Positions 1-8,706 of a stretch of DNA of 59,338 bases are shown here, piece after piece. Numbering within the stretch: the stretch's first letter is position 1; every line of letters begins with the position of its first letter. The stretch spans positions 1 through 59,338 of the forward strand of contig NZ_LRRH01000065.1 of NCBI RefSeq assembly GCF_001646785.1, read 5' to 3'. Source of the DNA: Rhodococcus phenolicus. Its GTDB lineage: Bacteria > Actinomycetota > Actinomycetes > Mycobacteriales > Mycobacteriaceae. Below the pieces are notes generated by a model, which worked only from the letters and a program-made list of their open reading frames with translations, was not told the DNA's origin and did no database searches. The position numbers and the translations under genes were made by a program.

Positions 1-54
1 GGGGGTGGGGGACGGCAGGCGCATCACGGCGAGATCGGGTGCTTCGAGCGTCAT
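1..54 (-). CDS. 5' end of an unidentified gene, cut by the window edge
   Basis: An ATG (complement of 52-54) opens a reading frame that runs off the left edge with no stop. The 18 visible codons read MTLEAPDLAVMRLPSPTP. On the minus strand GAGGAG lies six bases before the ATG, a good ribosome-binding site. The gene is divergent from the amine-oxidation operon starting at 371, so it could be its regulator, a transporter or another enzyme. The visible residues do not identify a family and I assign none. Confidence 0.6.
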   Translation of the reverse strand, partial: MTLEAPDLAVMRLPSPTP

Positions 55-370
55 GGGGACTCCTCGGCTTCGGCTGCATGGTTTCACTAGGTGAACCGCT
101 GTCGAATATAAGGAAACACGCGCCGCATTGCCAGTCGGTTACGCCGGTGTGAGGATGTCGTGAAGGCCGCCGCTTCCGGTTGCGAATCCGCACGGACGGT
201 GTAATCGGTTGCAGCCGAGCTTGTTTCGTTACAGGCGTTAACCCGGGCGCAACCGATCCGAGGGTTTCATCGCATTACTGTGTGTTTCACGACAGCGATC
301 ACGCTGGTCGTTTTCCGCTCCGAACTTCGTTCGCAACGGCCCTTTCGACCACCGTCCCCGAGGAGTTTCC
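55..370. promoter_or_regulatory. Divergent control region upstream of the amine-oxidation operon
   Basis: This 316-base gap separates the leftward partial gene from the cupin at 371 and holds no convincing gene. Besides the 13-bp palindrome at 83-95 it has a perfect 9-bp inverted repeat, ATCGGTTGC at 204-212 and GCAACCGAT at 249-257, with 36 bases between the arms. That could be a pair of operator half-sites or the base of a leader hairpin. GAGGAG at 360-365 is the ribosome-binding site of the cupin. I could not place a -35/-10 pair with confidence. Confidence 0.4.
83..95. promoter_or_regulatory. TTCAC-TAG-GTGAA palindrome, probable repressor operator
   Basis: A perfect 5-3-5 palindrome, TTCACTAGGTGAA, lies 28 bases upstream of the leftward gene start and 275 bases upstream of the rightward operon. 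Size and symmetry suit a TetR- or GntR-type dimer. It is nearer the leftward gene, so it may control that gene or both. No regulator gene is visible in the window beside it. The site is seen; its function is inferred. Confidence 0.45.
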
Positions 371-748
371 ATGGCAGAGACCGTCGCGGTTCCCGCTTTC
401 CGCGTCACCGCAGACTTCTGGAAGTCGCTCCCGCAGATGCCGGTGGACGAGTTTCCCGGCACCCGCGGCTACATCGACGACGTGTACCCGAACCCGGAGG
501 GTTCGGCGATGGCGGCTGGCTACTTCAAGCTCGACCACACCGACGCACCGCTGGACTACCTGTACGAATACGACGAGATGAAGGTCGTTCTCGACGGCGA
601 GTTCCGGCTCGAGAACCTCGACACCGGGCAGGTCGAGATCGCCCGGGCGAGGGACGCGATCTTCTTCCCGAAGGGCTCGCGGATCCGGTTCACGACCCCC
701 GACGGCGCGATCGCGTTCTACGTCGGCCAGCGCACCTTCGCCCCCTAG
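371..748 (+). CDS. Small cupin protein (EutQ-like), first gene of the amine-oxidation operon
   Basis: A 125-residue single-domain cupin. The middle of the protein (about residues 55-110) carries the usual beta-barrel pattern: YEYDEMKVVLDGEFRLEN, a turn, then ARDAIFFPKGSRIRF. It resembles the cupins annotated as ethanolamine-utilisation EutQ-like. The typical HxHx3-4E metal triad is not obvious (YEYDE occupies the first motif), so metal binding and catalysis are uncertain. The start is fixed by GAGGAG just before the ATG. The next gene begins 13 bases after its stop, so it is co-transcribed with the demethylase-like genes. A role as small-molecule binding or accessory protein for amine oxidation is inferred only from this position. 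Confidence 0.75.
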   Translation: MAETVAVPAFRVTADFWKSLPQMPVDEFPGTRGYIDDVYPNPEGSAMAAGYFKLDHTDAPLDYLYEYDEMKVVLDGEFRLENLDTGQVEIARARDAIFFPKGSRIRFTTPDGAIAFYVGQRTFAP

Positions 749-761
749 GAAGGCCGAGCCG

Positions 762-1274
762 ATGAGCGTGTGTGCGAACACGACCAGCGTGCCCCGCTGG
801 GCGGAGGAGCGAGCAGTGGCCCCCGGTGGGCGGGTCGTCACCGTCATGTCGTTCGGTCACGCGGCCGCCGAGCGGGCGCGCACCCTGGTCGCGTCCTTCG
901 AAGGCCGCCGGGTGAGCTGGCTGCGCGTGCCCACCACTTGGGGTGACGCGGCCGATGCGGCTCTCGAACGTCACCTTTCCGCGGCCCGGGTGGGATGGCG
1001 CCTGGTGCTGGTCGGTGACGAGGCGTCCGTTCTCGCCGCCCGTGCGAAGGCCGTCGCCGCCGGCGCACTCGACGCGGAGATCCTTCCCGAGGTGCTCGTC
1101 GCCGGACGTCGCCGGCTGTACTGCGTGCACTGCCTGTCCGTCCATTCGACGGACGCGGCGATCGGCGGGACCGGAGCCTGTCCGGGCTGTGACGCGAAAC
1201 TGATGGTCTATCACCATGTTTCGAGGCGGCATGGTGCGTACTTCGGCTACATGATCGACGCGGAGGAGAGCTGA
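762..1274 (+). CDS. DmmA-like subunit of a haem-dependent N-demethylase system (first copy)
   Basis: A 170-residue protein of the family named after the DmmA subunit of dimethylamine monooxygenase. The C-terminal third has a rubredoxin-like zinc or iron ribbon, Cys121-x2-Cys124 and Cys140-x2-Cys143, followed by the family signature RRHGAYFGYMIDAEE. The N-terminal part looks like a small alpha/beta domain. In the characterised Pseudomonas mendocina enzyme this type of subunit belongs to a multi-cofactor complex (haem, FMN, [2Fe-2S], tetrahydrofolate) that demethylates dimethylamine with NADPH. Its stop overlaps the ATG of the reductase gene (ATGA), implying translational coupling. A second, diverged copy lies at 3294. 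The exact electron-transfer or assembly role is not known to me. Confidence 0.8.
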   Translation: MSVCANTTSVPRWAEERAVAPGGRVVTVMSFGHAAAERARTLVASFEGRRVSWLRVPTTWGDAADAALERHLSAARVGWRLVLVGDEASVLAARAKAVAAGALDAEILPEVLVAGRRRLYCVHCLSVHSTDAAIGGTGACPGCDAKLMVYHHVSRRHGAYFGYMIDAEES

Positions 1275-2293
1275 TGACCCTCGTATCCGATTCCGATTCC
1301 GATTCCGATTCCGATTCCGGTGCCGCCGTCCGGGACGGCGGCACCGCCCTGGCTCTGACGGTCACCGAGGTGGCCGCCGTGGGGCGCGACGTCCGGCACG
1401 TCCGGCTCGCCGATCGAACCGGCGGGCCGCTGCCCTCGTTCACCCCCGGCAGCCACATCGTGCTGTCCTGCGGCCACCACGCCGACGGCCGTCCCCGCCG
1501 CAACTCCTACTCGCTGACCGGTGCCGAGTTCGAGCCGCACAGCTATTCGATCTCCGTGCGCCTCGACGAACACGGCCGGGGCGGTTCCCGCTGGGTCCAC
1601 GATCTCGCGGTGGGCGACCTCGTGGAGGTCAGCACGCCGCGCAGCGCGTTCGCGCCGGTGCTGACCGCGCGGCACCACATGCTCGTCGCCGGCGGCATCG
1701 GAGTCACGCCGATCCTGTCGCACGTCCGCGCGGCGATTCGATGGGGCCGGTCGTTCGAGGTGCACTACACGTTTCGCGAGGGCGACGGTCCGCACCTCGA
1801 CGAGTTGCGCGACCTGTGCAGCGATCGGCTGCACACCTACCACACGCCGGAGCAGTTCTGGGCCGCGATGGACCCGGCCCTGCTCGATCGGCCGCTCGGC
1901 ACCCATCTGTACGTGTGCGGACCGTCCGGCCTGATCGAGGATCTCGCGGGCCGCGCCCGGAACGCGGGCTGGCCGGACGCGCGGATCCACTACGAACACT
2001 TCGGCGTCGGCGACCTCGATCCGGGGTCGCCGTTCACCGCGCACCTGCGCCGCGCCGGCTTGGACATCGACGTCGAATCCGGTGTCAGCCTGCTCGACGC
2101 CCTCGAGGCCAGAGGTGTCGCGATACCGAACCTGTGCCGGCAGGGGGTGTGCGGCGAATGCCGGACGTCCGTCGCCGACGGTGCCGTCGAACACCGCGAT
2201 CTGTACCTGACCGCAGCGGAGAAGGACGCCGGCGACTGCATGATGCCGTGTGTCTCCCGCGCTGCCGGATCCCGATTGGAGCTGGAACTGTGA
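1274..2293 (+). CDS. FMN/[2Fe-2S] oxidoreductase (PDR/VanB type), shared reductase of the demethylase system
   Basis: 339 residues with the phthalate-dioxygenase-reductase layout: flavin-binding barrel with RRNSYSLTGAEF, an NAD(P)H-binding domain with MLVAGGIGVTPILSH, and a C-terminal plant-type ferredoxin domain whose cluster cysteines start at Cys288 (C-x4-C-x2-C, last Cys near 324). It should take electrons from NAD(P)H through FMN to the iron-sulfur cluster and on to the haem subunits encoded next to it. The N-terminus carries a low-complexity Ser-Asp run (residues 5-15) encoded by a hexamer repeat and absent from typical homologues. ATG overlaps the upstream stop, and its own stop overlaps the next GTG. 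Only one reductase serves two haem subunits here. Confidence 0.88.
   Translation: MTLVSDSDSDSDSDSGAAVRDGGTALALTVTEVAAVGRDVRHVRLADRTGGPLPSFTPGSHIVLSCGHHADGRPRRNSYSLTGAEFEPHSYSISVRLDEHGRGGSRWVHDLAVGDLVEVSTPRSAFAPVLTARHHMLVAGGIGVTPILSHVRAAIRWGRSFEVHYTFREGDGPHLDELRDLCSDRLHTYHTPEQFWAAMDPALLDRPLGTHLYVCGPSGLIEDLAGRARNAGWPDARIHYEHFGVGDLDPGSPFTAHLRRAGLDIDVESGVSLLDALEARGVAIPNLCRQGVCGECRTSVADGAVEHRDLYLTAAEKDAGDCMMPCVSRAAGSRLELEL
1289..1318 (+). repeat. (GATTCC)5 hexanucleotide microsatellite inside the reductase gene
   Basis: Five perfect tandem copies of GATTCC, preceded by a partial copy, encode an (Asp-Ser) run right after MTLV. Copy-number change keeps the reading frame, so slippage would alter only the length of the acidic N-terminal tail. 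The repeat is AT-richer than its surroundings. Confidence 0.95.
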
Positions 2294-3297
2294 CCACGGC
2301 AACCGAATCCGCCGTGCTGCCGCACCGGGTCGCACGATTCCCCTTCCCTTTCCCGCGGAACAACTACCGATACAGCACGAACGTCGAACCCGCGGGCACC
2401 CGGACCGAGACGGCCGCCGGCGGCTGGGGGGACCATCCCGTCGACATCGACGAACACCACCTCGACGAACTCGCCGAGCGTTCCCGCGTGCTCGCCGCAG
2501 ATCCCGGCCGGTTCCAGGCGCTCCCGCACATGGACATCGCGCAATGGGACGCGATGCTCACACTCATGAAGATGCTCGCCGAGGCGTACCCGCGGAGGTT
2601 CGCCCTCGACCGGGACGGCGACATCTGGCGGTGGAGCAATGTCGCACTCGATCTCGAGCAGGCATTCGTCTTCGGGCGGGCCGTGACCCTGCCCGAACCG
2701 CCCCTCCTCTACATCGGCAGGCAGATCCAGGAGGATGTCGTGCTGCTCGACCAGCGCGACGGCGCGCTGTGGGGCGACGCGGGGCTCGTGACGTGCGCGG
2801 CGGACTGGTCGCTGCGCTTCGACATCGGTATGAGCTTCCTGGAGATTCACGGTCCGGTACCTCGTATCCACACCGAGGGTGTGATCGGGCGCGCCCAGTC
2901 CTTCCTCATGGGACTGGCCGGCGGACAACGCTATCGGCGTACCAACTGGACCCTCACCGTGGATCGCCGACTCGACACCGCGACCGAGACCTACCCGGAA
3001 TGGGGACGCGACCGCCGGCTGCTCGCGGAGGGACCTCTCGCCGACGTCGGCCGGCGCCTGCACCTCCGGGTGGAAGTGCAGCACCTGATCCGGCTCGGTG
3101 AGTCCGGCGCGCTCATGTTTCTGATCCGCACCCACCTGCTGCCCTTCGAACAGGTCGCGCTCGTGCCGGAGTGGGCCGACCGCCTCTACCGGGTGCTCGA
3201 GGAACTCCCGGACGACATGGCCGACTACAAGGGCATCACACGAACCCGCGAGCCGGGCCTGAAGTGGCTGCGTGAATTCGGGGGTGTGCGACCGTGA
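2290..3297 (+). CDS. Haem-PAS oxidative N-demethylase alpha subunit-like protein (DUF3445), first copy
   Basis: 335 residues from a GTG that overlaps the reductase stop (GTGA); a longer in-frame extension upstream lies within the reductase gene and is discarded. Family hallmarks are the early NVEPAG segment, FDIGMSFLEIHGPVP with His187, RRTNWTLTV, and the C-terminal LRVEVQHLIRL...LMFLIRTHLLP block. In P. mendocina the homologous alpha subunit is a haem-binding PAS domain that oxidises dimethylamine using O2 and electrons from the partner reductase. His187 sits in the most conserved motif and is a candidate haem or active-site residue (inference). Fatty or methylated amines are plausible substrates; which one is unknown. 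A second copy at 3794 aligns colinearly but is clearly diverged. Confidence 0.85.
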   Translation: MTTATESAVLPHRVARFPFPFPRNNYRYSTNVEPAGTRTETAAGGWGDHPVDIDEHHLDELAERSRVLAADPGRFQALPHMDIAQWDAMLTLMKMLAEAYPRRFALDRDGDIWRWSNVALDLEQAFVFGRAVTLPEPPLLYIGRQIQEDVVLLDQRDGALWGDAGLVTCAADWSLRFDIGMSFLEIHGPVPRIHTEGVIGRAQSFLMGLAGGQRYRRTNWTLTVDRRLDTATETYPEWGRDRRLLAEGPLADVGRRLHLRVEVQHLIRLGESGALMFLIRTHLLPFEQVALVPEWADRLYRVLEELPDDMADYKGITRTREPGLKWLREFGGVRP

Positions 3298-3797
3298 AGA
3301 ACTCCGGAATCGTTACCGGGACCGTCCCACCGATCGATCCCACCGGCCGGATCCATCTGCTCTTCTGCGTCGGCGACTGTGCGGACGCCCGCACAGTCGT
3401 CGGGACCTGGGCGGCTCAGGCGCTGGCCGCCGGCCGCGTCGCGACCGTGGTGCCCGCGGCCACCGCCGCCCGGGTGACGCAGTTCGTGCAGCAGGCACGG
3501 GCCGGCAGCCGTGTGCTCATCGCCGGGCCTCGCCGCGAAGCGATGCTCGCGGCGGCCGCGGCGCGCGCCGCCGGTGTCCTGCCGTGCGAGACGACCACCT
3601 ATGTCACTGCCACCGAAGGGGTCTCGCTGTTCTGCCCGCACTGCGGCCGGACCGGCGACGTCGAGGCGGAGCCGGGCGCGGTCGTCGCCTGCGGATCGTG
3701 CGGGCTCCACCTCGAGATCCGCCCTCATCTGTCGGGACATCACGGCACCTACCTCGGTGCCGTGGCCTGTCCTTCACCAGGAAAGGAAACACCGTGA
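3294..3797 (+). CDS. DmmA-like subunit, second copy
   Basis: 167 residues starting at a GTG that overlaps the preceding stop by four bases. It has the same plan as the protein at 762: an N-terminal alpha/beta region and a C-terminal ribbon with Cys114-x2-Cys117 and Cys133-x2-Cys136, then the shared tail pattern HHGTYLG. Outside the ribbon and tail it differs strongly from the first copy, and the acidic DAEE end is missing. Each DUF3445 gene is thus followed or preceded by its own DmmA-like gene, suggesting two enzyme modules built on one reductase. Partner specificity cannot be read from the sequence. Confidence 0.75.
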   Translation: MKNSGIVTGTVPPIDPTGRIHLLFCVGDCADARTVVGTWAAQALAAGRVATVVPAATAARVTQFVQQARAGSRVLIAGPRREAMLAAAAARAAGVLPCETTTYVTATEGVSLFCPHCGRTGDVEAEPGAVVACGSCGLHLEIRPHLSGHHGTYLGAVACPSPGKETP

Positions 3798-4783
3798 CCA
3801 CTTCCGTCGCCAGCGACCTGTCCTGCCTGCCGTGGCCGTTTCCCGCGGGGGACGGTACCTTCCGCTACGCCGTGAACGTCGAGCCCGCGCCGAGGCGCAC
3901 CGTCACCGCGGCCGGCGTGTGGGGCGAGCACATCGTCGATCTCGGCAAGAGCCACGACGAGTACGTCGAGATGATGGCATTACGCCGCGCGATCCTCCGC
4001 GCGGATCCGGCGCGGGTGCAGACGCTTCCCCACATGACCCCGGCGTGCTGGGACCTGCTGCTCTACTACATGCGCGAGATGGCGCAGTCGTTTCCCGACG
4101 TCATGCACCTGGACGCCGACGAGACCGGGTACCGCTGGCGCAACGATCTGCTCGGAATCGACCAGCGGTTCGTGCTCGGTGACGAGACCTCACTGCCCGA
4201 ACATCCCCTCGTGTTCGTCGGGTGCCAGCTGCCCGACGACGTGCTGCTGGTCACGGAGCGGGACGGGCACCTGTGGTTCGATGCCGCGCTGGTCACGTCG
4301 TCGGCGGACTGGTCGGTCAAGTTCGACATCGGCATGAGCCTGCACGAGATCCACCGGCCCGTACCGGGTCTGACGCCGGACGGGATCACCGACCGCGCCG
4401 AGCAATTCATGCGCCGGCTCACCAGTGATCAGGCATACCGCCGGGTGAACTGGACGTTCTCGGCTGTCGGGTCGCGACGCCGCGACACGAGTCTCGAGTC
4501 GATGCCGGAGTGGATGGACGACATGCCCCGGTTGATCGCGGACGGGGATTGGGGCCGGATCCAGTTGCGGATCGAGCTCGAGCATCTGATCCGGTTGCCC
4601 GTGACCGGGGCGATCGTCTTCAACATCCGCACTTACATGGCGCCGCTCTCGGAGGTCGCCCGGATTCCGGAGTGGGCCGCGCAGCTCGCGGACATCGTCG
4701 AGGAACTGCCTGACGAGATCGCGCGGTACAAGGGCATCGACTCGTATCGGATGGCCGCGATGGCCTGGTTACGTTCCCAGTGA
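3794..4783 (+). CDS. Haem-PAS oxidative N-demethylase alpha subunit-like protein (DUF3445), second copy
   Basis: 329 residues from a GTG overlapping the previous stop; AGGAAAGGAAAC just upstream is a good ribosome-binding site. The conserved blocks match the first copy at the same positions: NVEPAP near the N-terminus, FDIGMSLHEIHRPVP with His187 at the identical residue number, RRVNWTFS, and LRIELEHLIRLPVTGAIVFNIRTY. Sequence between these blocks has diverged, so this is an old duplication or a partner subunit rather than a recent copy. It may form a heteromer with the first copy or be a separate oxygenase for another amine. It ends five bases before a strong hairpin terminator. Confidence 0.85.
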   Translation: MTTSVASDLSCLPWPFPAGDGTFRYAVNVEPAPRRTVTAAGVWGEHIVDLGKSHDEYVEMMALRRAILRADPARVQTLPHMTPACWDLLLYYMREMAQSFPDVMHLDADETGYRWRNDLLGIDQRFVLGDETSLPEHPLVFVGCQLPDDVLLVTERDGHLWFDAALVTSSADWSVKFDIGMSLHEIHRPVPGLTPDGITDRAEQFMRRLTSDQAYRRVNWTFSAVGSRRRDTSLESMPEWMDDMPRLIADGDWGRIQLRIELEHLIRLPVTGAIVFNIRTYMAPLSEVARIPEWAAQLADIVEELPDEIARYKGIDSYRMAAMAWLRSQ

Positions 4784-4840: not shown

Positions 4841-6031
4841 TCAGCGCATTTCGCCCGCGCCGACGTAGGGGTTGAGACTCGTCAGGGGTTTGCCCTCGGC
4901 GAACCGGGAGTAGCGGAAGTCGTTCCCGTCGACGGCCGGGTCGCTCGAGATTCCGTCGAGCAGCAGATCGGCAGCGAGCCGGCCGACCGCCGGGGAGATC
5001 TTGTAGCCGTGTCCGCTGAACCCGACGAGCAGGAACAATCCGGGCGCGGGGGAGGGGCCGATGATCGGGTTGTAGTCGGGGGTGATGTCGTAACAGCCCG
5101 CATACGACGATGCCAGCCGCGGATCGGGCATCTCCGGCAGCAGCCGTTCGAGTTTGCCGACGGCGACCTCGATGTAGCCGTCGTCGGCGCGGTTGGAATA
5201 CGAGTCGGGATCGGCGATCTCGGGCGACGAGTGATCGCTGTTGCCGACCAACAGTTCGCCGTTCGGCTCGCGGCGCACGTAGTGCAGGTTGACCAGGTCC
5301 GAGAACGTCGGGACGTCGGGGGTGGGTACGCCCTGATCGACCAGGAGGATCGGTTCGCGCTGGGCCCGGATCGGAAGGTCGACCCCCGCGGTCGCGCCGA
5401 GGGTCGGTGACCAGACCCCGGTCGCGAGAACGACGGTGTCGGAATGGATTTCGGTGCCGTCCACCAGTTTTACACCGTACACGTCGCCGCCGGGGCGCTG
5501 CAGCAGCGAAGTCACCTCGGTGGACTGGCGGACCCGGACGCCGAGGCTCCGGGCCCTGGTGCCGTAGGCCATTCCCGTCATGTACGCGTCGCCGTGACCG
5601 CCGAGCGGTTCGTAGGCGAAGGCGGCGAAATCGCCGAGGGCGATTCCGGGCCACAACCGGCGGACCTCGTCGGCGTCGATGCTCTCGACCGGGACACCGA
5701 GTTCGCGGTGCATCGTGACGTTCGCGGCGAGGGGGCCGGTGTTGTTCTCGCCCACTCCGACGATGTAGCCGGTCTGCCGGAATCCGATGTCGGTGCCGAA
5801 GATCTCGTCGGCGCTGCCGAAGACCTGAACACCGTGCCAGGCCATCGCGGCCAGGGACGGTACGCCGTAGTGGCATCGGACGATGCCGCTGGACTTTCCG
5901 GTCATGCCGGAGCACAGGGTTCCCCGTTCGAGGACGAGGACGTCGGTCTCGCCCCGCTCGGCGAGGGACCATGCCGTGGCCAGTCCTTCGAGTCCGCCGC
6001 CGACGATTACTACACGGGCGCTTTCTGTCAT
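4841..6031 (-). CDS. FAD-dependent amine/amino-acid oxidoreductase (DAO family, sarcosine-oxidase-beta-like)
   Basis: 396 residues. The N-terminal Rossmann motif VVIVGGGLEGLATAW (Gly11-Gly16) binds FAD; CSGMTGKSSGIVRCHYG follows, in the position of the flavin-contact loop of the sarcosine oxidase beta family; the C-terminal YDITPDYNPIIGPSP and GFSGHGYKISPAVG are also typical of that family. Such enzymes oxidise the C-N bond of N-methyl or secondary amino acids, usually releasing formaldehyde or an imine. No alpha, gamma or delta sarcosine-oxidase subunit is adjacent, so it may be a monomeric oxidase or dehydrogenase. GAGGAT eight bases before the ATG supports the start. It faces the demethylase operon across a shared terminator; a joint role in methylated-amine breakdown is inferred. 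Confidence 0.8.
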   Translation of the reverse strand: MTESARVVIVGGGLEGLATAWSLAERGETDVLVLERGTLCSGMTGKSSGIVRCHYGVPSLAAMAWHGVQVFGSADEIFGTDIGFRQTGYIVGVGENNTGPLAANVTMHRELGVPVESIDADEVRRLWPGIALGDFAAFAYEPLGGHGDAYMTGMAYGTRARSLGVRVRQSTEVTSLLQRPGGDVYGVKLVDGTEIHSDTVVLATGVWSPTLGATAGVDLPIRAQREPILLVDQGVPTPDVPTFSDLVNLHYVRREPNGELLVGNSDHSSPEIADPDSYSNRADDGYIEVAVGKLERLLPEMPDPRLASSYAGCYDITPDYNPIIGPSPAPGLFLLVGFSGHGYKISPAVGRLAADLLLDGISSDPAVDGNDFRYSRFAEGKPLTSLNPYVGAGEMR

Positions 6032-6187: not shown

Positions 6188-6796
6188 ATGACGGTCCCCG
6201 TGCGTCCCGCCTCGAAAGCCGATGTCTCCGCCGTTGCAGCTGTTCTCGCCGAGGCGTTCGCCGACGACCCGGTGATGGAATGGATGTGACCCGAGATGCG
6301 ACACCGCGCACGGGGTTTGCCGCGAATGTTCGCCGCCGAAGCCCGATTCCATGCGGTACCCGGCGGCGGGGCAGAGATCGCCGAGGGTGCCGACGGCGCC
6401 GCGGCCGGAGCGACCCTGTGGGCGCCGCCCGGAGCGTGGAAGCCGTCGGCGGTGCAGTCGCTGCGCATGATGCCGCGCCTGATGCTCGCCCTCGGGCGTC
6501 GATCCCGCATCGGGCAGGAGGTCAGCGAAGCACTCGACGCGGCGCACCCCGGCGAACCGCACTGGTACCTGTCGGCGATCGGCACCGCGAGCGCCGCACG
6601 CGGTGGCGGATACGGTGCGGCGCTGCTGCGATCACGCCTCGATCGATGCGACGCCACAGGTGTGCCCGCCTACCTCGAGTCCAGCAAGGAATCGAACATC
6701 GGCTACTACGAGCGGTTCGGGTTCGATGTCACCGGCGAGATCGTCGTGCCCGGAGGAGGACCCACGCTGTGGGCGATGTGGCGCACGCCGCGGTGA
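6188..6796 (+). pseudogene. GNAT acetyltransferase interrupted by an in-frame TGA
   Basis: Codons 1-33 read as a GNAT N-terminus (VRPASKADVSAVAAVLAEAF...DDPVMEWM), then TGA at 6287-6289, and the same frame continues with RHRARGLPRMFAAEARFHAV through a complete acetyl-CoA-binding domain (GTASAARGGGYGAALL near codon 135, then SKESNIGYYERFGFDV) to 6796. Homologues commonly continue through this point with a Trp or Leu before Pro, so a single TGG-to-TGA change explains the break. An ATG at 6296 could restart translation and give a 166-residue protein lacking beta1-alpha1, which probably would not fold normally. The rest of the frame is intact, so the lesion is recent, or is a sequencing error. 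Substrate unknown. Confidence 0.75.
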
Positions 6797-6857: not shown

Positions 6858-8192
6858 CTACCCTCGCGCCGTCACGGGCGCGGCAAGCCCCTGCTCGTCG
6901 ACGAGCCGTTGGATTCCGGTCAGGGTCTCGTCGAGCCCGGCCCCCAGCCGGGGACCCGGTGTGAAGGTGGCCGGAAGCCGTCGCATGCCCTGGATGACCC
7001 CGATGGAGTCGTAGTGAACGGTGCCCTCCGGATCGCACCGGTAGTCCGGTACACGGTCGAGGACGGCGACGAGCATCCGCTTGAACATGGTGCGCGCGAG
7101 GTTGGATCCGATGCAGCGGTGCACGCCCAATCCGAAACTGAAGTGGCGATTGCCGGTGCGTTCGAGGTCGATGGTGTTCGGGTCCGAGAACAGTTCGGGA
7201 TCCCGGTTGGCCATCGCCCAGGAGAGCCAGACTCGTTCGCCCTCCTTGAACCGGACACCATCGAGTTCGACATCCGCGGAGAAGGTGCGTCCGTCGCCGG
7301 CCGACGGGCAGAAGAACCGCAGGAACTCTTCGGTCGCCGAGTCGAGCAACCGGTCGCGTTCCGTGCTGAGGACCTCGCGCTGATCGGGGTTCTGGGACAG
7401 CCATTCGAGCGCGTGGGAGGTCAGCGCGGTGGTGGTGTCGAATCCGCCGCCGATGAGCAGGCTGAGGACGCCGAGTAGTTCGAGGTCGTCGGGCGTCTCG
7501 CCGTCGACGGTCGCCCGGGCGACGGCGTCGACCATGCCGGGGCGGGGATTCTCGCGGATCTCGTGGAGGTTGGTGAGGAGGTCCACGCCCATCGTGCGAT
7601 GGAGTTCCGCCACGCGGGGAACGTCGGGCGAGTCCGGAGGTGTGTACATCGCGGCGTGGACCGGTTCGCAGTACACCTTCCATTTCGTAACCGGAATTCC
7701 CAGCATCGCCAGCGTGATGACCGCAGGCACGATGTTCACCAGATCGTCGATGAAGTCGATCTCACCGGTCTCGATCTTCTCGTCGAGGCAGGCCCGGATC
7801 ACCTCGTCGATCAGTGGAACCCACTTCCGGATGGCGGCGGGGGACAGGTACGGATTGAGGACCGTGCGGAACTCTCTATGTTCGGGGTCGTCCATCTCGA
7901 GGATTCCACCCCGGACACCCGACGCTCGGGCCGCCGTCGGAATCATGATCCCCTTGTATCCGCGGCGTTCTCCCTTGATGTCGTGGTCGTTCGAGATGTC
8001 GGCCGAGCGGGAGAGCGTGAAGACGGCATTGCTGCCTGCCGCCACCCAGTGACCACCGTGGGTGTCGGACCAGGCCATCGGGCACTTCGAATGCATCTCG
8101 TCGGTGATGCGCAGAAAGTTGTCACGGTAGTCCGGGGCATGTCGATCGAACTGGAATACGGGTGTTCGGTGTGCGGTGTCTTCGACGTTCAT
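6858..8192 (-). CDS. Cytochrome P450 monooxygenase
   Basis: 444 residues from the ATG at 8192; an in-frame extension upstream overlaps the ferredoxin gene and is unlikely. All P450 landmarks are present: I-helix LLIGGGFDTTTAL, the K-helix ExxR in EEFLRFF, and the haem loop HFSFGLGVHRCIGSNLAR with ligand Cys360. The I-helix has Gly-Gly-Gly where most have Ala-Gly, which may widen the oxygen-binding site. It is a soluble class I bacterial enzyme that needs a ferredoxin, and one is encoded 53 bases upstream in the same orientation. Hydroxylation or N/O-dealkylation of a small substrate is likely; neighbours that attack C-N bonds make N-dealkylation worth considering. I cannot assign a CYP family. 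Confidence 0.92.
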   Translation of the reverse strand: MNVEDTAHRTPVFQFDRHAPDYRDNFLRITDEMHSKCPMAWSDTHGGHWVAAGSNAVFTLSRSADISNDHDIKGERRGYKGIMIPTAARASGVRGGILEMDDPEHREFRTVLNPYLSPAAIRKWVPLIDEVIRACLDEKIETGEIDFIDDLVNIVPAVITLAMLGIPVTKWKVYCEPVHAAMYTPPDSPDVPRVAELHRTMGVDLLTNLHEIRENPRPGMVDAVARATVDGETPDDLELLGVLSLLIGGGFDTTTALTSHALEWLSQNPDQREVLSTERDRLLDSATEEFLRFFCPSAGDGRTFSADVELDGVRFKEGERVWLSWAMANRDPELFSDPNTIDLERTGNRHFSFGLGVHRCIGSNLARTMFKRMLVAVLDRVPDYRCDPEGTVHYDSIGVIQGMRRLPATFTPGPRLGAGLDETLTGIQRLVDEQGLAAPVTARG

Positions 8193-8245
8193 GTCCTGCT
8201 CTCTCGCGCGCGGGTAACGGTGGGTGCGGATTCGGACGTGCGGTG

Positions 8246-8437
8246 TCAGTGGAGTGAGACGGCCTGTTCGGGGCAACTGCGGAAGGCCTCTCGTGCGCTG
8301 TCCGCGAGGTCGGCCGGAATGTCGCTGCGGACGGCGGTGGCATGGCCGTCGATCTCGCTGAGCTCGAACAACGCGGGGGCGGCCATGGCGCACAGGGTGT
8401 GTCCCTGGCAGCGTCGCGGATCAACGTCGACCTTCAT
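8246..8437 (-). CDS. [3Fe-4S] ferredoxin, electron donor to the P450
   Basis: 63 residues starting MKVDVDPRRCQGHTLC. The cluster pattern C-x5-C...CP is that of the small ferredoxins that partner actinobacterial P450s, with a non-Cys residue at the position that would be the fourth ligand. GGAGC upstream of the ATG at 8437 is the likely ribosome-binding site; a longer upstream in-frame start exists but would add an unrelated tail. It precedes the P450 gene in the same operon. No ferredoxin reductase gene adjoins it, so a reductase encoded elsewhere is probably used. Confidence 0.9.
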   Translation of the reverse strand: MKVDVDPRRCQGHTLCAMAAPALFELSEIDGHATAVRSDIPADLADSAREAFRSCPEQAVSLH

Positions 8438-8706
8438 CGTTTGCTCCGTCTCGAAGTGGATACTGTTCTCGTGCACTGTGTTCGATGATTTCTTCGTCAT
8501 CGCACCGGAACGTGGTCGGCGACGGATTCCGGTCGCCGACGAGTGAGGGAAGAGTAGCGGTCTCTATTTCGGAAACCACATTCCGGATTGGCAGAATAGT
8601 ATTCTTAGAGTGGGTCGGGTGCAAGCTTCCGTCCGCAATTCTTTGCGATGCCGCCGAGTTCGCCCGTCGGACGGTTCGGGACGCGGACGCAGCAGGCCGC
8701 GGTAAC

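Follow-up and report, generated by a model that had tools for sequence, protein, structure and literature searches.

The first kilobases of a Rhodococcus phenolicus contig (NZ_LRRH01000065.1, assembly GCF_001646785.1; its whole 59,338 nucleotides are called the window below) carry a cluster of six genes related to the dimethylamine monooxygenase DmmABC and to the haem-PAS N-demethylase HODM. Two of the genes encode putative haem-PAS alpha subunits and two encode small gamma proteins, accompanied by a single beta reductase and a cupin (Table 1). The cluster is considered here as a candidate pair of oxidative N-demethylases working from one reductase. The names alpha, beta and gamma are preferred; database naming conflicts, 'DmmA' being the small ribbon protein at NCBI, whereas the haem subunit is 'subunit A' in some JGI records and corresponds to dmmC according to our own mapping, a gene count between tmm1 and tdm on plasmid pAMI6.

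Gene content of the R. phenolicus operon

A first-pass annotation made from the DNA letters had described six genes in one tightly coupled operon with a cupin and a single reductase, and all six lie at 371-4783, where gamma1 and beta overlap by 1 base and the beta/alpha1, alpha1/gamma2 and gamma2/alpha2 pairs by 4 bases each. Its further description of two diverged alphas and two diverged DmmA-like proteins agrees with the family scans: the alphas are 47% identical and are the two PF11927 matches of the R. phenolicus genome, and the gammas are 31% identical. The top solved structure by sequence was 5lte, the HODM alpha, for both alpha1 (358 bits) and alpha2 (236 bits). In the family scan the reductase matched the Fer2 and DmmA-like_N domains. 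Five gattcc hexamers (1289-1318) give its N-terminus a Ser-Asp repeat.

Table 1. Features at the beginning of the window, with coordinates, strand and basis of assignment.
Feature	Coordinates	Strand	Basis and remarks
gmaS start, first 18 codons (gamma-glutamylmethylamide synthetase / type III glutamine synthetase, GS-III)	1..54	-	Resembles R. zopfii L033 GS-III start; truncated at contig end
Divergent intergenic region gmaS/operon	55..370		GTTTCA/GTGAAC-type blocks, e.g. 80-97
EutQ-like cupin, first gene of the operon	371..748	+	PF06249, 48 bits
gamma1, NCBI 'DmmA family', two CxxC ribbon, partner of alpha1	762..1274	+	NF041259, 111 bits (cut-off 60); gamma tree
beta, flavin/NAD(P)/[2Fe-2S] reductase, alpha1-associated type	1274..2293	+	PF22290, PF00111; outside beta2 clade
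alpha1, haem-PAS N-demethylase alpha subunit, likely dimethylamine monooxygenase (from sequence)	2290..3297	+	PF11927, 200.1 bits (cut-off 25); GTG start
gamma2, DmmA family, partner of alpha2	3294..3797	+	NF041259, 85.4 bits (cut-off 60); gamma2 clade; GTG start
alpha2, second haem-PAS N-demethylase alpha subunit	3794..4783	+	PF11927, 199.2 bits (cut-off 25); GTG start; AlphaFold2 model vs 5lte
FAD-dependent oxidoreductase (DAO, resembles sarcosine oxidase beta)	4841..6031	-	Candidate N-methylglutamate or sarcosine oxidase

In HODM of Pseudomonas mendocina a single alpha is joined by beta, gamma and a delta that binds folate. The likeness to that enzyme (5lte/5lth) lies in the haem-PAS alpha, seen in the sequence of both copies and also in the fold of the alpha2 model, whereas the window has two alphas, two gammas and one reductase, and no delta-like gene was found in it. 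DmmDABC of Paracoccus aminophilus (pAMI6, L166) is colinear with the R. phenolicus operon in its gamma-beta-alpha order. In contrast to DmmDABC of P. aminophilus and Ruegeria pomeroyi, no dmmD was found, and the operon is headed by a cupin and has an extra gamma-alpha pair without a reductase of its own; the EutQ-like cupin and its relatives stand where Paracoccus has dmmD.

That a folate-binding, aminomethyltransferase-like gene is missing had also been noticed at first pass, and it held on closer search: a DmmD query from P. aminophilus gave nothing in the window, nor in 107 partly overlapping loci, and the two GCV_T matches of the whole genome are both on contigs other than the window's. 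A hidden DmmD was thus considered for R. phenolicus and not found. According to one study, dmmABC suffices for dimethylamine oxidation in E. coli (PMC5520151). In P. aminophilus, single dmm mutants are described as unable to grow on dimethylamine as sole carbon and energy source, and the pAMI6 replicon is said also to hold genes of the N-methylglutamate pathway (accessible text of PMC4543880).

A second DmmB-like reductase was not found in the R. phenolicus genome when it was searched with a beta2 query, to which the operon beta is 48% identical and the next-ranked match 37%. One reductase for two alphas means that the operon consists of one complete HODM/DmmABC set and an extra gamma-alpha pair, and not of two complete copies.

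Modules and reductases in related loci

Contigs were searched with an alpha2 alignment, which gave 57 named loci; being seeded with alpha2, this survey shows how often alpha2 is accompanied by alpha1 and not the converse. Both alphas occur together in 50 of the 57, contrary to the possibility, allowed at first pass, that the two modules never co-occur elsewhere. The pair therefore recurs, and is not peculiar to the R. phenolicus operon. In 45 of the 50 two-alpha loci (Gordonia, Nocardioides, Modestobacter, Prauserella and others, within L033-L089) both gamma-beta-alpha modules are complete and have separate reductases. These loci fall in the same alpha and gamma tree groups and belong to the same type of island, but they keep two reductases, against one in the window and in its Rhodococcus relatives. 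One reductase was counted in the other five two-alpha loci, including L053, which is truncated by a contig end. The second reductase is lacking in the window, in L033, L034, L035 and L037, and in genome G051 (L133).

The commonest layout is cupin-gamma1-beta-alpha1-gamma2-beta-alpha2, with the alpha1 module first (29 loci), followed by layouts with the alpha2 module first (9 loci). Four loci resemble the window, namely those of R. zopfii (L033), R. aetherivorans (L034), R. ruber (L035) and R. globerulus (L037). The modules are divergently transcribed in four Cryobacterium loci, the cupin lies between them in two Corynebacterium loci, and other layouts are found in one or two loci each. Alpha2 is without alpha1 in seven loci (L036, L038, L039, L040, L054, L083 and L074), of which L054 and L083 are short contigs. 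L074, with L158 and L159, belongs to Candidatus Mycobacterium methanotrophicum, where both alphas are on one plasmid about 25 kb apart and the alpha2-side reductase matches as two pieces. In R. jostii and R. opacus, alpha1 and alpha2 are on separate contigs. At least two CxxC motifs were found in 49 of 50 gamma1 and in all 56 gamma2 proteins, and all 101 reductases have the [2Fe-2S] pattern.

In a tree of 71 reductase rows picked from the loci, the alpha2-side copies of the two-reductase loci form, together with L148, one clade (beta2; support 87 in the Shimodaira-Hasegawa-like approximate likelihood ratio test). The window beta falls outside it, among the alpha1-side reductases, and the beta of the R. 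opacus-group alpha2 loci (L036, L038-L040) is likewise outside and of the beta1 type. The gamma2 clade (90), by contrast, includes the window gamma2 and those of the same four loci and no alpha1-side row, and the alpha2 clade (100) takes in their alpha2 as well as that of the window. Because the gamma and alpha trees group the R. opacus-group loci in this way and the beta tree does not, gamma followed alpha while beta was replaced. A single loss of beta2 agrees with the alpha tree, where one clade (94) unites the alpha2 rows from the window, from its one-reductase Rhodococcus relatives and from the R. opacus group. The one-reductase arrangement is most likely, judging from these trees and from the layouts of the loci, what remains of an ancestor with two full gamma-beta-alpha modules after the Rhodococcus lineage lost beta2. 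Between the cupin and the reductase of the R. opacus alpha2 locus is a 30-residue remnant of the end of a gamma1, which shares 67-70% of its residues with intact gamma1 proteins, and fainter gamma1 traces were seen in R. wratislaviensis; the R. opacus locus looks like a copy of the entire operon that lost gamma1 and alpha1.

One oxygenase or two

The first-pass annotation had offered two explanations of the paired alphas, a heteromeric alpha1-alpha2 oxygenase or two oxygenases. The heteromer, in which both subunits would be required, is suggested by the adjacency and translational coupling of the genes and by the alpha2-seeded survey, in which both alphas share most loci and alpha2 is seldom without alpha1. 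The converse was examined in genomes of the family, 40 of 201 of which have a PF11927 gene. The regions around all PF11927 matches (42 regions from 39 genomes, plus the window) were sorted by best score: 12 genomes have both alphas, 27 have alpha1 only and one has alpha2 only. Counted among the 27 are G095, which also has two alpha2 fragments, and G128, whose distant alpha groups beside the alpha2 clade. The alpha2-only genome (G023) is 99% complete, and its gene occupies the same contig place as in R. wratislaviensis (G582); a second such case is a metagenome-assembled genome (MAG) without known completeness. In the genus set (18 genomes) six have both alphas, seven alpha1 only and five neither, and phylum-wide a PF11927 match was found in 18 of 396 genomes. 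A single genome, G006 (L127, L148, L150), contains four PF11927 genes, of which two lie away from the island described below.

Either alpha can thus occur alone, each has its own gamma type, and the two are separated in R. jostii and R. opacus, as noted above, and divergent in Cryobacterium. An obligate heteromer is unlikely and was discarded because of the solo-alpha genomes and the divergent or separated layouts; a facultative complex of the two could still form. The solo alphas, the separate gamma types, the rearranged and separated modules and a conserved core kept in both proteins instead favour two oxygenases.

This core was defined by comparing 120 alpha1-side rows (74 search hits and 46 from the loci and the window) with 149 alpha2-side rows (119 search hits and 30 from the loci and the window). 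Omitted were 46 of 120 alpha1-search hits that fell on the alpha2 side in a quick tree, one short hit (189 amino acids) and the distant L149 and L151. In both groups 51 positions are at least 97% conserved, including Asp178, His187, Arg216-217 and Trp220. His187, which has the same number in both alphas, is a histidine in 320 of 320 rows of the full alignment, which takes in three proteobacterial rows and rows omitted from the group comparison; neither alpha therefore lacks this conserved residue, a loss of the kind considered at first pass. His265/264 is invariant in the alpha1 and alpha2 groups and not in the three proteobacterial rows.

Pairwise comparison with R. zopfii gave nonsynonymous (dN) and synonymous (dS) divergences of 0.066 and 0.43 for alpha1 (dN/dS about 0.15) and of 0.053 and 0.43 for alpha2 (dN/dS about 0.12). 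Decay of alpha2 in R. phenolicus was ruled out by these low ratios and by the kept core positions. The AlphaFold2 model of alpha2 (mean predicted local distance difference test score, pLDDT, 85.4) matched 5lte with a template modelling (TM) score of 0.82; 5lth, titled as a dimethylamine complex, was the second-ranked match, also at TM 0.82. This model places residue 187 in a helical stretch between strands two and three of the PAS-like sheet. The PAS domain of 5LTE is given as 155-290 in the accessible text of a review (PMC8694187), and the aligned histidine, chain index 194, falls inside it if the numbering agrees.

PAS haem domains are commonly sensors, and alpha2 might have no catalytic part and serve alpha1 as a haem sensor or regulatory subunit. 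One genome, G095, agrees with this, having two alpha2-like fragments (L131, 7971-8798) next to an alpha1 module that is intact; no gamma2 was called in that locus, and its alpha2 seems to be in decay. Elsewhere alpha2 retains the shared core and its own gamma type and, in 45 of the 57 loci, a second reductase for which a sensor would have no need, and this explanation seems very improbable.

A further alternative, itself a case of two oxygenases, is that both alphas are dimethylamine monooxygenase isozymes differing in affinity, oxygen response or expression. They have their island and downstream pathway in common, as well as the core positions just described, and in many genomes an alpha1 without alpha2 adjoins gmaS-mgs. 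Ten positions, however, are at least 90% conserved within each alpha group with residues that differ between the groups, a pattern that spans several families, and the gamma types are separate. The alpha2 modules of R. jostii (L040, 2126-8261) and a related MAG (L038, 2124-8260) also have a context unlike the methylamine island, lying immediately behind an acyl-coenzyme A (CoA) ligase, a short-chain dehydrogenase/reductase, a BadF-type ATPase and two HGD-D dehydratase genes. The isozyme explanation is possible but doubtful. The CoA-ligase and HGD-D neighbours are not shared by the R. opacus and R. wratislaviensis alpha2 loci, for which reason the surroundings of detached alpha2 loci were dropped as a clue to substrate.

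Whatever the substrate of alpha2, then, and with the isozymes counted in, the operon probably encodes two separate haem-PAS oxidative N-demethylases on one reductase, both of which would probably demethylate small amines. In the sequences compared, what points this way is the gene content, the inheritance of gamma together with alpha, the loss and replacement of beta2, the low dN/dS and the island context. Several observations weigh against it. For the actinobacterial members the argument draws on sequence and not on biochemistry, and His187 is a putative axial haem ligand in a part of the alpha2 model (171-200) of low confidence (block pLDDT means 57, 73 and 63). The branching order of alpha1 and alpha2 is weakly resolved, and the alpha1-side gammas are not one clade under midpoint rooting. 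Alpha2 is almost always accompanied by alpha1, as a facultative heteromer would also give, and its occurrence alone rests on one genome of known completeness. Finally, dmmD, absent here, is reported in the accessible text on R. pomeroyi as required for growth on methylated amines (PMC5520151).

The methylamine island and the substrates

Judged by the domains of the neighbouring genes, the operon belongs to an island for methylamine assimilation that includes gmaS and mgsABC. Another contig of the same genome (C57, L164) breaks off within the 3' portion of a GS-III gene, which is followed by mgsA, mgsB, mgsC and a helix-turn-helix (HTH) gene, with amtB about 1 kb beyond. The two contigs are not joined, their adjacency being taken from R. 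zopfii; the assembly break falls inside gmaS, with a gap of about 0.7 kb by the same comparison. Island genes were named from Pfam and NCBIfam scans of one representative per cluster, gmaS and mgsABC being the names that we give to consecutive genes with, in turn, GS-III, glutamine amidotransferase, GXGXG and glutamate-synthase domains.

Among the 57 named loci the cupin was counted in 52, amtB in 40, gmaS in 37, mgsA in 37, mgsB in 34, mgsC in 31, DAO (at least 120 bits) in 32 and HTH in 30. At least one of amtB, gmaS, mgsA and mgsC is present in 49 of the 57, several loci being truncated by contig ends. In the 42 family loci, alpha1-alone loci included, gmaS and mgsC each occur in 26. The intergenic region 55-370, aligned with three Rhodococcus relatives, has conserved GTTTCA/GTGAAC-type blocks, to which no operator was assigned. 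Beyond the DAO gene lie a GNAT acetyltransferase (6296-6796) and, near it, a cytochrome P450 that has a small ferredoxin upstream of it (6858-8500, minus strand); related P450 frames were found in L033 and L036.

We infer haem binding, electron flow, substrates and the role of the gammas as follows. Electrons from NAD(P)H would pass through the flavin and [2Fe-2S] cluster of the single beta to gamma1-alpha1 or gamma2-alpha2, each small gamma being the dedicated partner of one alpha and beta being exchangeable. At each alpha haem, oxygen would oxidise an N-methyl group, which would depart as formaldehyde. Alpha1 is likely a dimethylamine monooxygenase, most likely converting dimethylamine to methylamine, and alpha2 would demethylate the same or another methylated amine, its product joining the same pathway. 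Methylamine would then be taken up by way of gmaS-mgsABC, which are divergent from the operon, and perhaps of the FAD oxidoreductase next to it.

More tentatively, gamma2-alpha2 may be a haem-PAS trimethylamine N-demethylase forming dimethylamine directly, so that alpha2 and then alpha1 would strip two methyl groups in succession while served by one reductase, replacing the known trimethylamine route through trimethylamine monooxygenase (Tmm) and Tdm. The rarity of alpha2 without alpha1 agrees with this. A Tmm match (E <= 1e-70) was found in none of 13 alpha2 family genomes against 10 of 27 with alpha1 only (Fisher 0.016), in a test that scored the 8 best candidates per genome over lineages that are not independent, which weakens it. 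It is weakened further when two alpha2 genomes of the genus set are added, one of which, G592, has both alpha2 and Tmm (1/15, Fisher 0.064). Among the named alpha2 genomes, searched for 49 of the 57 loci, two of 49 have Tmm, one as a partial match at 49%. Tmm was also matched in 32 of 161 family genomes without PF11927, and is thus common without any alpha. The Tdm matches (E <= 1e-40) are confined to the second half of the query, and Tmm may therefore have a role other than demethylation in this family. The co-occurrence pattern is suggestive but weak for a trimethylamine role of alpha2.

The accessible text of a 2015 survey of methylamine users in Arthrobacter, Mycobacterium and Bacillus names no dimethylamine monooxygenase candidate beyond trimethylamine monooxygenase proteins (PMC5023230), and that of a 2022 paper notes dmmABC in Nesterenkonia (PMC8875376). 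No paper title on tandem haem N-demethylase modules was found in a partial literature search, and absence from print is not claimed.

The loci described here would provide an actinobacterial candidate for the dimethylamine monooxygenase in several families, frequently as two oxygenases together. The probable loss of a reductase in Rhodococcus would be a natural test that tells the specific parts of such enzymes (gamma with its alpha) from the exchangeable one (beta). The question of substrate becomes directly testable with the five proteins of one operon.

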